From Helicobacteraceae bacterium (GTDB taxonomy: Bacteria > Campylobacterota > Campylobacteria > Campylobacterales > Sulfurimonadaceae): DNA of 34,045 bases. A program made the translations under genes and the position numbers. The notes under the pieces are model-generated. The model saw only the letters and a list, made by a program, of their open reading frames with translations. It did no database searches and had not been told where the DNA came from. Positions within the stretch are counted from its first letter, which is position 1, and every line of letters starts with the position of its first letter. The stretch spans positions 1-34,045 of the forward strand of contig WGDB01000067.1 in NCBI GenBank assembly GCA_015493495.1, in the 5' to 3' direction. Positions 26,402 through 34,045 of the stretch are shown here, in pieces.

Positions 26402-26992
26402 ATGGCCAAACCGATTACAAAAAAGATAGTCTCTGGAAAGTTTAAAGGAAAGCAGCTTGATCTGCCCTCTTTGAGCACAACCCGAAGCTCCAAAAATATT
26501 GTTTTAGAGTCTTTTTACAACACCATACAGTTTAATATTATTGATGCGACTTTTGTGGAACTTTTCTCAGGAAGTGGCTCTATTGGGCTTGAAGCACTGA
26601 GTCGTGGTGCCAAACAGATTCTTTTTATGGAGCGTGATCGTAATGCTTTAAAGGTACTAGAACAAAATATAGCAAGAACAGACCCTTCTGCCTGCGAGAT
26701 ATACAGAGGGGACACCTTTGCCAATATTGGTGCTGTTGTCAAACGTCTTAAAAGTTTAGAGACTCCTGCTTACTTCTATGTAGATCCTCCATTTTCGATT
26801 CGAGAAGGGCATGAAGATATTTATCAGAAGATGATCAAACTCATATCAGAGCTTCCTGAAGCTTTGGTTGAGATGGTCATTGTAGAACACATGACAGGGT
26901 TGGAGCTTCCTGAGAGTTTAGGTTCTTTGCTCAAGTTGAAATATAAAAAGTTTGGTAAGACTTCACTGACTTACTATGGTGTTCAAAATTAA
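26402..26992 (+). CDS. rsmD: RsmD-like 16S rRNA (guanine-N2)-methyltransferase
   Basis: RsmD methylates G966 of 16S rRNA using SAM. The 196 residues begin ITKKIVSGKFKGKQLDLP, as RsmD proteins do (IxxGxxrGrkL), followed by TRSSKNIVLESFYNTI in place of the family's RPT-x-R-ES-FN segment. Motif I is VELFSGSGSIGLEALSRGA (about 52-70). The catalytic motif IV is DPPF at 128-131, matching N2-guanine methyltransferases. It starts 3 bases after the exonuclease stop and ends the 25255-26992 operon. The usual partner coaD is not next to it. Confidence 0.88.
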   Translation: MAKPITKKIVSGKFKGKQLDLPSLSTTRSSKNIVLESFYNTIQFNIIDATFVELFSGSGSIGLEALSRGAKQILFMERDRNALKVLEQNIARTDPSACEIYRGDTFANIGAVVKRLKSLETPAYFYVDPPFSIREGHEDIYQKMIKLISELPEALVEMVIVEHMTGLELPESLGSLLKLKYKKFGKTSLTYYGVQN

Positions 26993-27068: not shown

Positions 27069-28187
27069 ATGCATCATAGAACTGTGCTCTCCATTTTAAT
27101 AACACTGATGTTTAGTGTCATGCTAAATGCTGCAACAGCTTTAGACAATACTTTTGTTGAAATACCAACACTCCCCAAATTTGAAAAGCCCCAGTTAAAA
27201 GAGGGTGAAAGTGCAGAAGCTTTTGAACAGCGTGTACGAAAACTACATGAGCAGCGCATCGAAGATGTGTTTGAGATTCAAAAGGCTTTTCGTTTAGAGG
27301 TTGAAGATAGAAACAGACGGTTACTAAGAGGAGAAGAACGACAGAGTCCTAGTCTTGTTGACCCCTACGATCCCCTTTTTACAGCTTATGCGTCAGAGAG
27401 CTTTATAGTAGAAAACAGTCCTCAGTTTGAAACACTTTTAGAGCGTGATCAAAAACGCTATAAAGGGCATAACTCATGGTTATTTATAGTCTCCATAGAA
27501 AAGTATCAGCATACAGATCCTGTGCTGTTTGCACGACGTACTGCTGAAATTGTAAAAGCAACTTTTCAAAAGAAACTGGACATTTCAGAACGTAATATTG
27601 TGACTCTGTACAACAAAAATGCTACACTAAAAAATATTGATCAAGAGTTACGAAAACTGTTAAGAAGAGTCCAGCGTAATGATGTGGTCTATTTTTATTA
27701 TTGTGGACATGGACTGAGTAACAAGGCTGGTGAGCAGCTGATCTTGCCTTATGATGGCATGCCTGACTTCTTAGACTCCAAAAACACTCTAAAGCTAGAA
27801 CGTATGTATAATAAGTTTCTAAACTCAAGAGCACTGCGTACCTTCTCTTTTATAGATGCAAGTTTCAATGGTATTACTGAAGGTGTGCCCATACAAAAAG
27901 GTCTTGACAAGGTTGAGATGAGACCTCGTGCAGAAGGTTATCATAAGCGCCTCAACATTTTGAACAGTGCCAGAGGACAAGATACTGCCAATGCCTACCT
28001 TGAAAAGGGATATCGTCTTTTTAGCTATTTCTTGGCACAAGAAGTGTTGACTAAAGAGCAAAATGCAGGGGCACTTTTTGATAGTATTCGTACGATGATA
28101 AGAGAGGTTTCGTATAGTTATGGTGAAGCTTACCTGCAAGAACCGGAGTTCTTTGGTTATAGAGAACTGATGTTAAAAAGTAAATAG
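27069..28187 (+). CDS. Secreted caspase-fold (C14-like) protein with Cys-to-Ser active site, paralogue 1
   Basis: The 372 residues begin with a Sec signal (VLSILITLMFSVMLNAATA). A charged helical region (about 20-125) is followed by a caspase-type p20-like domain (about 130-330). Strand SWLFIVSIEKY comes first, then YFYYCGHGLS with the catalytic His214. FSFIDASFNG follows, where the nucleophile position is Ser265 (AGT) instead of the usual Cys of DAC-F-SG. Either it is a pseudo-protease or it uses Ser. The conserved tail is LQEPEFFGYREL. A longer frame back to 26976 overlaps rsmD and would hide the signal peptide, so I use the ATG at 27069, which also follows a -10 box. It lies 202 bp before its paralogue. 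Confidence 0.82.
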   Translation: MHHRTVLSILITLMFSVMLNAATALDNTFVEIPTLPKFEKPQLKEGESAEAFEQRVRKLHEQRIEDVFEIQKAFRLEVEDRNRRLLRGEERQSPSLVDPYDPLFTAYASESFIVENSPQFETLLERDQKRYKGHNSWLFIVSIEKYQHTDPVLFARRTAEIVKATFQKKLDISERNIVTLYNKNATLKNIDQELRKLLRRVQRNDVVYFYYCGHGLSNKAGEQLILPYDGMPDFLDSKNTLKLERMYNKFLNSRALRTFSFIDASFNGITEGVPIQKGLDKVEMRPRAEGYHKRLNILNSARGQDTANAYLEKGYRLFSYFLAQEVLTKEQNAGALFDSIRTMIREVSYSYGEAYLQEPEFFGYRELMLKSK

Positions 28188-28389
28188 AACCGCCTCTTTA
28201 AAAGTTATAATTGCATAAGTAAAAGATATGATTTTAATAGGCTTAAATCATACTTTAATCTTATACCCCTGAAATGATGTTCTTTATAGAAGTTTTGTGT
28301 AAAATAGCCTCGAACGATATCTTGAGTGATTTCTATGATAAAGTCATATTGACAGACCAACGTAAAGTTGGCTTGTATAAAGAGTAATA
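28188..28389. other. Spacer between the caspase-like paralogues
   Basis: The spacer carries no gene. A possible -10 (TAAAAT near 28308) and a small hairpin CCAAC-gtaaa-GTTGG (28357-28371) lie before the second ATG. The hairpin is 18 bases from the start and could affect translation. Confidence 0.3.
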
Positions 28390-29700
28390 ATGCATAAAAT
28401 ATTTCTAATACTTCTAATAGCAGGTGTGACGTTTCTGTCAGCATCTCCAACAAATGAGAACTATGTTCCCTTGGACATCTCTCAGGTCGAGTTTGAGTCT
28501 ATGGCGGCTTTTCCCAGTACGGAACGCATTAATGTCCCTGAGTTTAAAAAGCTTAAGCCCTTAAAACAAAAACGAAAAGAGCGTAATGCAGCATTTTTAA
28601 GACGGGTAAAAGAGGCTACTGCTAAACGTCAAGAAGAGACCTACCCTATACAAGAGAAGTTCCGTTCAGAAGTTCTTCACCGTAATAATATCGCCAACAG
28701 CTCTAAAAAAGAGTTTGATGAATTGGTCTCGAGTTACAACAAAAAACTGGAGAAGTTTCGTAAGTTTATTGACTATGATGCGAAGGTTCATGGTGGTCCA
28801 AAGGTCTCTCAAAACTATCCACAACTTAAAAATGTTTCAATGGTCTTTGACAACTCGCAACAAGATCCTAACCTTAATGACCCATATCTTCCCCTTTTAA
28901 CAAGCTATGCGCATAAAAAGTACAGTGCTAAAAATGATGAACTTGAGAAGTTGATCAAACGGACTAAAAAAGCTTTTTCAGATTATAAGTCATGGCTGTT
29001 TGTAGTGTCGATCGAAGAGTATAAAGAGGCAGACAGAGTTTTGTTCGCTGACCGTACCGCCAAGGTGATGATCAAAGCATTTCAAAAAAAACTTGGTATT
29101 CCTAAACGTCATATTATTCATTTGGCAAACAAAGAAGCGACTGGTGCCAATATCATTACCCAGTTAGAAAAACTGGTCAAACGTATACAGCCTAAGGACA
29201 CGGTCTATTTCTATTTTGTTGGTCATGGTATTTCTGGGCCTTCTGGTAAAAACTTTTTGTTGGCATATGATGGCTCTGTGGATATGATGAATACACATGG
29301 TTTGGTGAGTATGGACCGTCTCTATAACACTTTTCAGCGTTCTAAGGCAGGACGTACTTTCGCTTTCATTGATGCAAGTTTTATGGGTGTGAGTGATGGT
29401 ATACCTCTTCGAAAAGGTGAGAAGTACACTTCGCCTGTCAAAAAGACCAAGTACCACAAACGTCTTAACATCATCAACGGTGCCCACCGTGACCAGATGT
29501 CCAATGCCTATTTTGAAAAAGGGTACCGCCTCTTCAGTTATTTCTTGATAAAAGGCTCTTTAGCCGAGAAAGAGCAAGACGCTGGGGAGATGTTTGACAC
29601 CTTGCAAAAAGAGATCATGCAGATATCTCAGAGTTACGGACCTGACTTTGCTCAAGAGCCAGAATTTTATGGATATCGCAATCTTGCGATGCACAAGTAG
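28390..29700 (+). CDS. Secreted caspase-fold (C14-like) protein with Cys-to-Ser active site, paralogue 2
   Basis: The 436 residues share layout and motifs with the gene upstream: signal peptide (IFLILLIAGVTFLSAS), a charged helical region (longer here, about 20-190), SWLFVVSIEEY, then YFYFVGHGIS with His279, and FAFIDASFMG with Ser330 (AGT) at the nucleophile position. NIINGAHRDQMSNAYFEKGY and the tail AQEPEFYGYRNL follow. The matched Ser in both copies argues against a random error in one gene. The protein is expected in the periplasm or outside the cell. The barrel gene follows almost directly, so this gene and the barrel form an operon. Substrate and role are unknown. Confidence 0.82.
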   Translation: MHKIFLILLIAGVTFLSASPTNENYVPLDISQVEFESMAAFPSTERINVPEFKKLKPLKQKRKERNAAFLRRVKEATAKRQEETYPIQEKFRSEVLHRNNIANSSKKEFDELVSSYNKKLEKFRKFIDYDAKVHGGPKVSQNYPQLKNVSMVFDNSQQDPNLNDPYLPLLTSYAHKKYSAKNDELEKLIKRTKKAFSDYKSWLFVVSIEEYKEADRVLFADRTAKVMIKAFQKKLGIPKRHIIHLANKEATGANIITQLEKLVKRIQPKDTVYFYFVGHGISGPSGKNFLLAYDGSVDMMNTHGLVSMDRLYNTFQRSKAGRTFAFIDASFMGVSDGIPLRKGEKYTSPVKKTKYHKRLNIINGAHRDQMSNAYFEKGYRLFSYFLIKGSLAEKEQDAGEMFDTLQKEIMQISQSYGPDFAQEPEFYGYRNLAMHK

Positions 29701-29711
29701 AGGTGGATGTG

Positions 29712-30791
29712 ATGACTGTTAATATAAGAATTCTAATTATTTTAGCCCTTCTCTCTAGTGTAGTTCAGGCAGATGACACAGAGAAAAAGATCGTAAAGCA
29801 AGATGGCATTGAAGTGTATGTCGAAACAGATAGAGATGAAAATTTAACAGACAGTGACTATGATGATGAAAAAGATCATGTCTGGGATGTGACAGAAGAC
29901 TATAATCTAAGTGCTGAGTCAGACTTTTATCTAGATGCTGCCTTAGTAGACTATTCTGAATTAACAGACTGTGAAGAGGATGCTAAAGACCAGATGGCAG
30001 ATGAAGCGATGGCTACTGTTGACCTTTGTCCTACGCGTAACATCGATATAAGACTTGGAAATCCTATAGAGATCAAAAAGATCAAAGTCTTGAGTAGAAA
30101 GCTTAGCAATGAGGAGTGTCAGTTAGAAGCAACCTACACGTTAAGTACCTTACCTCCAGAAGAGATGAAAGAGATCGATGCAGTTTGTCAAGATGAGTAT
30201 GATGGTTATGGGGCCTCTTTAATGCTTCAAGATGGGTTGTGGCAAGGTTTACAATTAAGTTTGGGCCTTGGATACTCTGGTGGTGGTATTGGTACCTTCA
30301 ACGTTGATCTACCAGGATTCCCTCCCCAAGTTGAATACAAATACTATTCAGCCCCTATGATCACTACTGATGCCGCATATTTGTACAAGATACCAGTTCC
30401 AAATATGTATGTACTCGCAGGTACTGAGTTAGGGTGGATATTTGAACAGACTAATCAATATACACCAAACATTACAGTGACACCCTTAGATGATGGCGGC
30501 AGTCCATACATCTTCCGTTTTGGTCTCTATGGCGGTTTAGGTTATCGATTTTTTATGAAGTATGATATTCAAGCTCAAATGGGCTATCAATTCCAGTATT
30601 TACATCGAACTATTAATGGGTTTCCTAGTAAAGGTGTGACAACAACATTTGATGGCTTTGAAAACAATATTTTATTTGCACTTCGTGGTGCTTACCATTT
30701 TCATGAGAACTTTGCCGTATGGGTAAAGGGTGAGCATAATACTGTAGCGGCAACAGGAACATTTGGTTTAACTTATGAGTTTTGGGATTAA
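29712..30791 (+). CDS. Outer-membrane beta-barrel protein with acidic periplasmic domain
   Basis: The 359 residues start with a signal peptide (RILIILALLSSVVQA). A very acidic stretch (about 20-75) and a small Cys-containing domain follow, with four Cys in the N-terminal half (LTDCEEDAKD, VDLCPTRN, NEECQLEA, DAVCQDEYD) that could form two disulfides. From about 155 onward it is an eight- to ten-strand barrel of OmpA/OmpW style (QLSLGLGYSGGGIGTF, FRFGLYGGLGYRFFMKY), ending TYEFWD. The ATG at 29712 has GAGG 8 bases upstream. The GTG at 29703 would extend the protein by three residues but lacks ribosome-site room. It directly follows paralogue 2 and probably acts with it at the outer membrane (inference). 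Confidence 0.78.
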   Translation: MTVNIRILIILALLSSVVQADDTEKKIVKQDGIEVYVETDRDENLTDSDYDDEKDHVWDVTEDYNLSAESDFYLDAALVDYSELTDCEEDAKDQMADEAMATVDLCPTRNIDIRLGNPIEIKKIKVLSRKLSNEECQLEATYTLSTLPPEEMKEIDAVCQDEYDGYGASLMLQDGLWQGLQLSLGLGYSGGGIGTFNVDLPGFPPQVEYKYYSAPMITTDAAYLYKIPVPNMYVLAGTELGWIFEQTNQYTPNITVTPLDDGGSPYIFRFGLYGGLGYRFFMKYDIQAQMGYQFQYLHRTINGFPSKGVTTTFDGFENNILFALRGAYHFHENFAVWVKGEHNTVAATGTFGLTYEFWD

Positions 30792-31055
30792 TGTACATAT
30801 TTTTAAAAAAACATGGTATCATTAATTATTAAATAAAGTTATTATCTACACAAATGTAGGGTATGCTTATCTCTCTTATATATTGGTGTTATACTGCAAC
30901 TTCAAGTTGTAGCATAATCTCTTCTCTAGCTCGTTTTTATCATATTTTTAATACCTATTTAGTCCAGAAATGTTATATTAAAGTAAGTTATAGATACTGA
31001 TCACATTGTTGATACACTATTTGTATTTATGATGTGATAGATACAAGGATTTAAT
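30792..31055. other. Non-coding spacer with small hairpins and an inverted repeat
   Basis: Hairpins CTACA-caaa-TGTAG (30846-30859) and CTGCAAC-ttcaa-GTTGTAG (30894-30912) follow the barrel gene but lack T-runs. ATCACAT (31000-31006) and ATGTGAT (31032-31038) form an inverted repeat just upstream of the lipoprotein ATG, and TAGATAC is repeated at 30991-30997 and 31038-31044. These may be regulator sites. AAGGA at about 31044-31048 is the ribosome site. Confidence 0.35.
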
Positions 31056-34045
31056 ATGTCAAAATTAATTAAAAAATTATTAGTGATAACTTTTTTAGGA
31101 ATGCTTCCACTTCTCTATACAGGATGTGATAGCGGTGAAGCAAACTATTCGCTAGAAGATGTACTCAAGGACCTAAATAACGCACAAGACCTGATCAATG
31201 GTGATATTACATTTAGTACGCCAAGTACCTTGGTAGTAAATGATCAACAGTCAGATGTGACAACAGTACGTTCAAACAGTCCACTGAACTTAGAATACAG
31301 TATAGTAGGTGGTGATGATAAAGAGCTGTTCATAATAGACCCACGTACTGGTAAACTCTCTTTTAAAACACCACCCCTCTACGATGCTCAATCACTTAAC
31401 ACTTATGATGTCATTATCGGTGTTACAACACTTTCAGGTGAACTTTCAACACATGCAATGCTCATCGTTGTTGTTGCAGACATTACAAAAGAAAAGCCTC
31501 TTGTTGATTATGTTGTAGACCGCGTACAAGCAGTTTTGGGTGATGGCCCTATTACCCAGATCAATGCCCGTCCGGCAGATGAGAGTAGTAGTGTTACCTT
31601 TGCGTTGACCGGTAGCGATAAAGATCTTTTTGAGATCGATAAAGAGGGTGTCATCACCTTTAAAAAACCATTACCAATAATAGAAGATGATACAGCTGCA
31701 AGTTACAGTGTCAGTGCTGTAGTGACAGATGGTTATGGAAATAAGATGGTGAGCGATCCTATTACTATCAGTATTGTGGCGAACCCAGACAAGATCCAAC
31801 CTATTATTGTGACGAAGAGTATCGATATTGTAGAAAACTCTTTAGGTGGTATACATATCGAAGTGAGTACTCCAGGTACAGGTGTTGTGAACCAATACAT
31901 CTTAGATGGCACTGACAAAGCACTTTTCGAGATCTCTGATACGGGTCTTTTAAGTCTAAAAGAGGCCAACGATTATGAGAGTGCGCCTAATACTTTTCAT
32001 ATCACACTACAAGTAGGTGATGATAAAGAGAACCTTAGTGAAGTGCAGGCCATCGTAGTGAATATCAAAGACCTTGATGAAGGGTTCACTTTTGAGCATA
32101 TTGGTAATTTTACAGCGATGGTGGGTCAGACTAAAGTGGGACAGATGCTGGCCACTCCAAACACGATCACCAATGTTGATGTCAACTATACGCTGATGCA
32201 GGGAAACTCGCTACTACAGATTGATGACGAAGGTTACATAAGTTTTAAGTCCCCAGCTGTAAAAACACCTAGCTTTTATGTTCAAGTGAAAGCCTACAGT
32301 CAGCTCAATGGTTCTGAGACATTGAGTGATGTCTTTAGTGTAGAGGTCGTAGATGATCCTAGTAAGGTCCCACCTTCTATTGATCAGAACTATCCACGTT
32401 CGACTTCAGTAGTCTCTCCTGCAGACATGACAGTAGCTGTGATGAAGGTTCAAGCTTCTGCAGAGGGCAATGCAACAACATTGAGTTATACTCTTAACGG
32501 TGTAGATGCTACTATGTTCACTATAGATGAAAATGGTAGTCTTTTCTTTGCCAGTGGCATAGAATTTGACCCTAATATAGACAACATCTATGAAGTAGTT
32601 GTCGATGTAAGTGATGAATATGGCAATGAGAAGTCGACAGAGGTGATCTCTGTAGTTGTGCTTGAAAATCCGGACACTATGATTCCTATTATTACCTCTA
32701 GTACATTTAGTGTAGATGAAAACAGCCTGGGTAACCTCACGGTGACAGATTTCGAACGTGGTTCAGGTAAGATCAACAGTTATAGTATTGTAGGGGGCGC
32801 GGATTCCGCACTGTTCACTTATGACAATAAAGTGTTACGTTTTAAAAGTGCTCCTGACTTTGAGTCTGAAGCTTCTGCCAATGGTACTAACACCTACAAC
32901 GTGACCTTAGAGGTGAGTGATGATCTTGGAAACATCAGTGAACCAAGAGAGATCATTGTCAATGTACAAGATGTCAATGAAAAGTTGACTTTTACTTCAT
33001 TAGTGAATTACAACCAGACAGAAGGTACCACTTATGTAGGAACGGTGACAGCAGGACCTGTTTTAGAGATGCCTGCTGAGATTAGCTACAGTCTAGTTGA
33101 CAGTACAGATACCTTTACGATCACAGCTGCTGGTGCTCTGAGTTTTATTGATGCTCCAGTGTATGTTTCTGGCGGTACTAACATTTATACAGTGAGTGTA
33201 GCAGCACACAGTCAGTACAATGGCTCCCTAACTACGCAAGACATCACTGTAAAAGTCTTTTCTGCAAGTTATGCGATTACTTTTGACTCGAACCAGTCAG
33301 AAGCATGGTTTGATCAAAATGTTGTTATGAGTTTTCCTATGACTGCAACTTCAGCTGCAGGAGAGACATTGACTTATAGTATTGAAGACTATACGGGTCC
33401 TGTCTTTAGTATTGATGCCATTACAGGGCTGTTGACAGTCAGTGCCCCTGCTTACAGTTGGGATACAACTGGTGAAGCAAATACTTATCGTGCAACAGTT
33501 GTCGCAACCGACACTAATGGAAATAGTGCAAGAAGACAAGGTGTCTTATATATCAATTCTATTGACGGCACACCGAGTATCAGTACAAGTAGCGATCTCT
33601 CTGTTAACGAAAATGTAAAATCTATTGTGAATCTGGCAGGATTAAGTCTTGTTGGCGGTACTTTAAATTATAGTGTTACAGGTGGTGCAGATGCCAACAC
33701 GTTTGATATCTTAAACAACCTTACTTTAGTGTTTAAAGATGCATCAGGTAAAAACTTTGAAGTCCCTAACGATGCTAATACAGATAATGTTTACGAAGTG
33801 GAGATCACAGCAACAGACAGTGTGAGTCATGTGACAACAACTAAACTGATAACGGTAAGTGTTAACAATGTTACTGAACTACCTAGCAATCTTCTTTTCT
33901 CTTCGATTGAAGATAATGATGGAAGAAGCAGTTATGTCAATATAGCAGATACAACACATCTGCAAGTTGATTCTGATACTTCACTGTTTTTTGCAGGCAG
34001 TAGAAGATATAAAGTGCAATTGGATGCTACTGCATTTAGTGGCCA
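31056..34045 (+). CDS. Large cadherin-repeat lipoprotein, 3' end outside the window
   Basis: An uninterrupted frame runs from ATG 31056 to the window end (about 996 codons, no stop), so the C-terminus is unknown. The signal peptide ends in a lipoprotein-type site (PLLYTGC, Cys24; Tyr at -3 is unusual). About nine cadherin/Ig-like repeats of ~95-100 residues follow. Each has a core of the form Y-SI-GG-D--LF-ID---G-L-FK, a DFE or DYES loop, and Y-VTLEVSDD-GN-S. Repeat ends such as VQDVNEKLTF keep the DxNE calcium site, while others are degenerate (IKDLDEG). The final segment (LLFSSIEDNDGRSSY) departs from the repeat. A calcium-stiffened adhesion or surface stalk is likely; the ligand is unknown. 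Confidence 0.85.
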   Translation, partial: MSKLIKKLLVITFLGMLPLLYTGCDSGEANYSLEDVLKDLNNAQDLINGDITFSTPSTLVVNDQQSDVTTVRSNSPLNLEYSIVGGDDKELFIIDPRTGKLSFKTPPLYDAQSLNTYDVIIGVTTLSGELSTHAMLIVVVADITKEKPLVDYVVDRVQAVLGDGPITQINARPADESSSVTFALTGSDKDLFEIDKEGVITFKKPLPIIEDDTAASYSVSAVVTDGYGNKMVSDPITISIVANPDKIQPIIVTKSIDIVENSLGGIHIEVSTPGTGVVNQYILDGTDKALFEISDTGLLSLKEANDYESAPNTFHITLQVGDDKENLSEVQAIVVNIKDLDEGFTFEHIGNFTAMVGQTKVGQMLATPNTITNVDVNYTLMQGNSLLQIDDEGYISFKSPAVKTPSFYVQVKAYSQLNGSETLSDVFSVEVVDDPSKVPPSIDQNYPRSTSVVSPADMTVAVMKVQASAEGNATTLSYTLNGVDATMFTIDENGSLFFASGIEFDPNIDNIYEVVVDVSDEYGNEKSTEVISVVVLENPDTMIPIITSSTFSVDENSLGNLTVTDFERGSGKINSYSIVGGADSALFTYDNKVLRFKSAPDFESEASANGTNTYNVTLEVSDDLGNISEPREIIVNVQDVNEKLTFTSLVNYNQTEGTTYVGTVTAGPVLEMPAEISYSLVDSTDTFTITAAGALSFIDAPVYVSGGTNIYTVSVAAHSQYNGSLTTQDITVKVFSASYAITFDSNQSEAWFDQNVVMSFPMTATSAAGETLTYSIEDYTGPVFSIDAITGLLTVSAPAYSWDTTGEANTYRATVVATDTNGNSARRQGVLYINSIDGTPSISTSSDLSVNENVKSIVNLAGLSLVGGTLNYSVTGGADANTFDILNNLTLVFKDASGKNFEVPNDANTDNVYEVEITATDSVSHVTTTKLITVSVNNVTELPSNLLFSSIEDNDGRSSYVNIADTTHLQVDSDTSLFFAGSRRYKVQLDATAFSG

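Follow-up and report, generated by a model that had tools for sequence, protein, structure and literature searches.

To our knowledge, no role has been established for exported bacterial caspases, and discussion of pseudo-orthocaspases has centred mainly on phototrophs. As described in two earlier studies, pseudo-orthocaspases have a caspase fold with the catalytic Cys replaced, the acidic pocket Asp kept, and the change fixed across whole clades (PMC6426788, PMC3501461). Ser is the most frequent replacement of Cys in prokaryotic metacaspases (PMC3501461), and PMC6426788 reports that cyanobacterial pseudo-orthocaspases keep the acidic pocket and that the described clades, from Alphaproteobacteria and Cyanobacteria, mostly carry Tyr-Ser, Tyr-Asn, Tyr-Ala, Phe-Ser, Gln-Cys, or His-Ala dyads. 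A locus which shares these general features was found at the end of a 34,045-nucleotide contig of a Helicobacteraceae bacterium (WGDB01000067.1), hereafter the window, which is the whole of contig C67 in the 2.57-Mb, 173-contig genome G000. From position 27069 to the contig end, four same-strand open reading frames encode two caspase-fold proteins (here cas1 and cas2), a barrel protein, and a cadherin-repeat lipoprotein, all exported according to N-terminal signal sequences judged by eye. Unlike the described clades, the caspases of this block carry a His-Ser dyad, are exported and duplicated, and belong to an outer-membrane locus of Campylobacterota; His-Ser is not among the common dyads given in the available part of PMC6426788. 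The composition of the block suggests an undescribed envelope system of one Campylobacterota genus, in which a former protease would bind rather than cut. The features are as follows.

27069..28187, + strand: cas1, exported caspase-fold protein of 372 aa, with His214/Ser265 replacing His/Cys (PF00656, 1.9e-8)
27861..27863, + strand: cas1 Ser265 codon AGT, at the catalytic-Cys position
28390..29700, + strand: cas2, exported caspase-fold protein of 436 aa, with His279/Ser330 (PF00656, 4.1e-9)
29377..29379, + strand: cas2 Ser330 codon AGT, at the catalytic-Cys position
29703..30791, + strand: barrel protein of 362 aa, GTG start with an alternative ATG at 29712
31056..34043, + strand: cadherin-repeat lipoprotein, 996 of 1060 aa inside the window; it runs off the end and the rest lies on contig C19 of G000 (L184)
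31125..31163, + strand: lipidation Cys and tag CDSGEANYSLEDV, the tag common to all block lipoproteins
26402..26992, + strand: rsmD-like methyltransferase gene (PF03602, 3e-35), bordering the block upstream in all genomes by synteny, and outside the system

The initial annotation had described four consecutive same-strand genes for exported proteins, namely two pseudo-caspases, an outer-membrane barrel with a Cys-rich periplasmic domain, and a giant cadherin lipoprotein. Apart from the word giant, this description was borne out. Both caspases score above the curated cut-off of Pfam Peptidase_C14, with matches reaching 211-224 of the 233 model positions of PF00656. The AlphaFold model of cas2, in which a long coiled N-terminal region precedes the caspase domain, has a predicted local distance difference test (pLDDT) score of 76 and matches MALT1, metacaspases, and caspases in Foldseek (best E 2e-11, others below 1e-8). 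In a census of 72 caspase-domain relatives, all 11 block caspases retain the His and have Ser in place of the Cys, so that none has the dyad of an active caspase, metacaspase, or orthocaspase; of the 61 others, 60 have His-Cys and a single one has His-Gly. The maximum-likelihood tree separates the His-Ser proteins by one branch (support 100/100) within which cas1 and cas2 form sister groups. The change arose once, and a single Cys-to-Ser step preceding the duplication suffices to explain the dyad in both paralogues. The best-scoring relative outside the genus is a His-Cys protein (G017:C12) with a related barrel adjoining.

The residues around the dyad have not all been treated alike by evolution. 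Those of the pocket type are kept in 11/11 block caspases (Asp at Cys-2, Gly at His-1, and Gly at Cys+3). By contrast, Cys+2, which is Ser in 58/60 active relatives, is N, D, T, or M in the block, and His+1, Gly in 60/60 active relatives, is Ala in four of the six cas2 proteins. Because the pocket residues are invariant and these two positions are relaxed, the pattern reads as a loss of catalysis with retention of the specificity pocket. By the features tested, including the substituted dyad and the Asp at Cys-2, both block caspases would be classed as pseudo-orthocaspases.

Several other caspase-type genes were seen among the relatives. The census left out a second exported caspase-type gene, distinct from the block, which occurs in the genus (L039, G000:C151, 5907-7091, with orthologues in L181, L182, and L183). 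Its products lack the catalytic Cys (LDTGF, LDTAF, LDTAY) and retain the His, and in G000, G060, and G035 it adjoins a gene for a lipoprotein about 380-395 aa long. A solitary caspase in G126 (L052, 8647-10338) has Gly at the nucleophile position; it sits on a long branch and has lost the dyad independently. Many His-Cys caspases, in L040 and L041 (both G139), L120, L130, L151, L156, L164, and L166, have as neighbours small exported proteins, about 155-215 aa long, with VRC[VA]R at the C-terminus, and the caspase genes are sometimes in tandem arrays. In L082, from a Nautiliales metagenome-assembled genome (MAG), a His-Cys caspase is fused behind VGKKDVWVIKIDKNGNKIW-type repeats, probably a beta-propeller.

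Genomic comparison within the genus revealed that the set cas2-barrel-lipoprotein is retained in six of eight genomes, which is every genome with a readable locus, and five of these six also have cas1. The order rsmD-like gene, cas1, cas2, barrel, cadherin lipoprotein is found in G049, G035, G043, and G007. G025, a single-contig genome, has the block without cas1. Here the 0.5-kb gap between the rsmD-like gene and cas2 (G025:C1, about 2018387-2018911, at the L037/L038 junction) carries frameshifted remains of cas1, recognizable as GELF, EPEF, and GYREL pieces, and cas1 was therefore lost recently and by decay. The two genomes without a readable block (G055 and G060; completeness 72% and 56%) have contig breaks just after or within the rsmD-like gene, and an N-terminal caspase fragment is still present in G055. 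They are thus uninformative on the block, and loss was rejected as an explanation since the contig ends account for the absence. Spacing is also conserved: the gap between cas2 and the barrel gene is 1-13 bp in 6/6 genomes, and the barrel and lipoprotein genes practically touch in G007 and G025, which supports co-transcription. Scans for promoters and terminators at the block gave background levels, so that spacing and synteny are the basis for the operon structure.

The ratio of nonsynonymous to synonymous substitution (dN/dS) between the window and G049 is 0.10 for cas1, 0.03 for cas2, 0.07 for the barrel, and 0.10 for the lipoprotein, with murA at 0.02. Genus-wide retention together with these values, which indicate strong selection, means that the block is not a chance arrangement. 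Cas1 and cas2 arose by duplication; cas2 is the core copy and cas1 is dispensable. The relatives belong to Campylobacterales MAGs, and matches in a contig scan were limited to MAGs of the same genus and to distant relatives. The proposal that the four genes form a unit thus holds in part. Inside the genus they travel together, and independent occurrence of caspases, barrel, and lipoprotein was not found there; the unit is not closed, given that cas1 is dispensable and that extra lipoproteins follow downstream. Outside the genus, what recurs in other genera is the caspase-barrel pair, in which the His-Cys dyad is intact and the accompanying lipoproteins are of other kinds.

The barrel protein consists of a signal sequence, an acidic N-domain with four invariant Cys (Cys-rich, as far as its sequence goes), and a C-terminal barrel. 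No family was assigned to it by Pfam, NCBIfam matches were far below their cut-offs, and sequence searches of the PDB with barrel profiles gave nothing useful. Its predicted structure is more informative. Residues 176-358, modelled with a pLDDT of about 85, match the OmpA barrel (1qjp) with Z 15.1 and 2.0 Å over 134 residues, and an 8-strand outer-membrane barrel of the OmpA type is predicted. It is similar in fold to OmpA, OmpX, and OmpW, but its soluble domain is placed at the N-terminus and does not correspond to the peptidoglycan-binding domain of OmpA. A profile of the window-type barrel matches the six genus copies only. A similar N-domain with a barrel-like C-terminus was found beside His-Cys caspases in G017, G013, G173, G151, and G009, and at a second locus of G043. 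Modest homology to the window barrel is indicated by hhalign (91.6% with the G017 protein, 86.5% with the five sister barrels). All 12 barrel relatives adjoin a caspase gene on the same strand with a gap of at most 20 bp, a count in which the five sister barrels were first spotted through that adjacency and from which divergent members could have escaped; a profile built from these five found no further strong match in 228 genomes.

LPP20, FlgP, and FlgT have a common SHS2-like fold, and some of these proteins form rings associated with the outer membrane (PMC12222027). The N-domain of the sister barrels resembles an LPP20/DUF4384 partner protein (probability 89, E 2e-6). Moreover, LPP20/DUF4384 proteins are the commonest caspase neighbours here, adjoining 29 of 72 (27 with LPP20 only, two with both LPP20 and a barrel), and 10 caspases have a barrel only. 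Unlike LPP20, FlgP, and FlgT, the barrel family carries this domain with conserved Cys and as a fusion to an 8-strand barrel. The N-domain of the window barrel itself gave no Pfam match up to E 1, PF02169 included, and may be no more than distantly LPP20-like. Since LPP20 is the commonest caspase neighbour and the sister N-domain resembles it, a unifying idea would be a caspase paired with an LPP20-like domain that is either free or tethered to the outer membrane. The lipoproteins adjoining the sister caspase-barrel pairs differ from those of the block (PPC, kelch/collagen). A like composition is found in G013, where one locus combines LPP20 and a His-Cys caspase with a protein that is barrel-like at its C-terminus and a cadherin/Big_5 lipoprotein of 1101 aa (L048).

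The window lipoprotein has a lipobox, LLYTG-C in the sequence, and five stretches matching Pfam Cadherin (PF00028, 1e-23). The window end shares an exact 151-bp overlap with contig C19 of the same genome, which completes the lipoprotein to 1060 aa; giant was an overstatement. On C19 it is followed by a second lipoprotein of 430 aa, the fifth gene of the block, and then by an ABC permease gene. The bridge is an assembly overlap, and the identical gene order in G049 backs it. Each genome has one to three block lipoproteins. In G035 and G043 the first and second are both cadherin-like. The last block lipoprotein has an unrelated body that is not cadherin-like. A further 1635-codon open frame with cadherin-like repeats, without the block tag pattern, lies elsewhere in G000 (C79, 21142-25014).

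The lipoproteins of the block share a tag, C-x(0-2)-GE[AT]xY, directly after the lipidated Cys, which is present in 12/12 and in its full form reads GE[AT][NDS]Y[STN][LF]. Its DNA pattern has 10 matches in the eight genus genomes, of which nine are in the block, and 10 in total in 220 other genomes of the family. The variants match within a genome (A-N in both copies in G000 and in G049, A-D in all three in G035, and T-S in all three in G043), and the copies in one genome differ by 2-5 synonymous codons of 8. Such matching points either to selection exerted by one shared partner or to an ancient gene conversion with synonymous drift afterwards. A shared tag of this kind favours display or assembly of surface lipoproteins. 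Three known systems are comparable in part. The Slam translocon is likewise an outer-membrane protein encoded beside lipoproteins (PMC9090332), but the block barrel is small and OmpA-like, with no Slam or TPR match in Pfam. The Bacteroidota lipoprotein export signal is also a short motif directly behind the lipidated Cys (PMC5080379), but it reads K-(D/E)2 or Q-A-(D/E)2, unlike G-E-[AT]-x-Y. LapG/LapD-LapA likewise combines a periplasmic protein of cysteine-protease type with a large repetitive surface adhesin (PMC3032553). Unlike the transglutaminase-like LapG, the block proteins belong to C14, the sole peptidase family found by Pfam, and have lost the nucleophile; no LapD-like gene was seen adjoining the block. 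The role in lipoprotein display is put forward as a hypothesis, with no claim of membership in any of these systems.

The composition of the system is well supported; from it we infer a mechanism with steps of docking, client recognition, surface location, and adhesion. The module would be a co-inherited envelope set that places surface lipoproteins. Its caspase-fold proteins would act in the periplasm as non-cutting binders, and would dock on an LPP20-like domain that the barrel tethers on the periplasmic side of the outer membrane. Caspase and barrel parts would then recognize or hold the tagged lipoproteins, whose cadherin and other beta-rich modules would end up at the cell surface, probably for adhesion. 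At sister loci, processing or release of the client would instead fall to an active His-Cys caspase. The overall proposal, in which a caspase that does not cut acts with an LPP20-like domain tethered at the outer membrane to bind the tagged lipoproteins and stage them for the surface, is given a probability of about 0.4. Several points weigh against it. The N-domain of the window barrel is modelled with pLDDT below 50 and has no direct LPP20 match (probability 3), so that the link runs stepwise via the sister barrels (86.5, then 89). An 8-strand barrel is too narrow for protein export. The tag may be inherited from one ancestral lipoprotein with no dedicated receptor, and three multi-copy lineages are the basis for its matching within genomes. 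The tag is acidic, whereas the pocket kept in these caspases is suited to basic side chains and is therefore probably not what reads the tag. Finally, the His-Ser dyad might still catalyse.

This last point leads to a rival explanation, in which the caspases still cut, using Ser as the nucleophile, and process lipoproteins or other envelope proteins. The invariance of His and Ser in 11/11 proteins across paralogues 42% identical, the retention of the Asp near the nucleophile, and the strong purifying selection all agree with it, but the relaxation at Cys+2 and at His+1 (Gly to Ala in 4/6 cas2) affects catalytic-loop positions fixed in active relatives, and Cys-to-Ser substitution usually abolishes activity in caspase-fold enzymes, which makes this quite unlikely. 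Dead homologues of enzymes commonly regulate active paralogues, and the block caspases could likewise act on active caspases elsewhere in the cell, as decoys or as regulators, with the lipoproteins not their clients. An active His-Cys caspase does occur elsewhere in G043; however, it is the only genome of the genus in which such a relative turned up, and the window genome yielded no His-Cys member, its sole other C14 match (contig C151) also lacking the Cys. A regulatory role is thus improbable.

The tagged lipoproteins might also be structural or adhesion proteins facing the periplasm that hitch-hike in the operon, their common N-terminus being a relic of lipoprotein duplication. Their bodies evolve fast (dN/dS up to 0.26), their copy number varies from one to three, and the first two in G035 and G043 are both cadherin-like, all of which speaks for this reading. 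Against this, the tag is kept at the protein level despite synonymous divergence, even on the unrelated last lipoprotein, and hitch-hiking is regarded as rather unlikely. Two further candidates were rejected. PHROGs gave no match that would link the locus to phage, and anti-phage defence is not favoured because all parts are exported; PADLOC yielded a generic caspase model only.

Returning to the staging of tagged lipoproteins by a non-cutting caspase, a broader version can be stated tentatively, with the odds against it: an undescribed Campylobacterota sorting and display system for surface lipoproteins in which the tag would mark clients, the LPP20-like domain of the barrel would be the docking site at the outer membrane, and the caspase, a cutter at sister loci and a non-cutting binder in the block, would gate placement or release. 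Within one bacterial family, His-Cys and His-Ser versions are found at similar loci whose barrels are related, a natural experiment on the caspase fold with and without cutting. The block also supplies concrete candidate partners for such a fold, namely the N-domain of the barrel and the tagged lipoproteins. If the tag is indeed a sorting signal, it would amount to an export code for the lipoproteins of Campylobacterota, among which are important pathogens.

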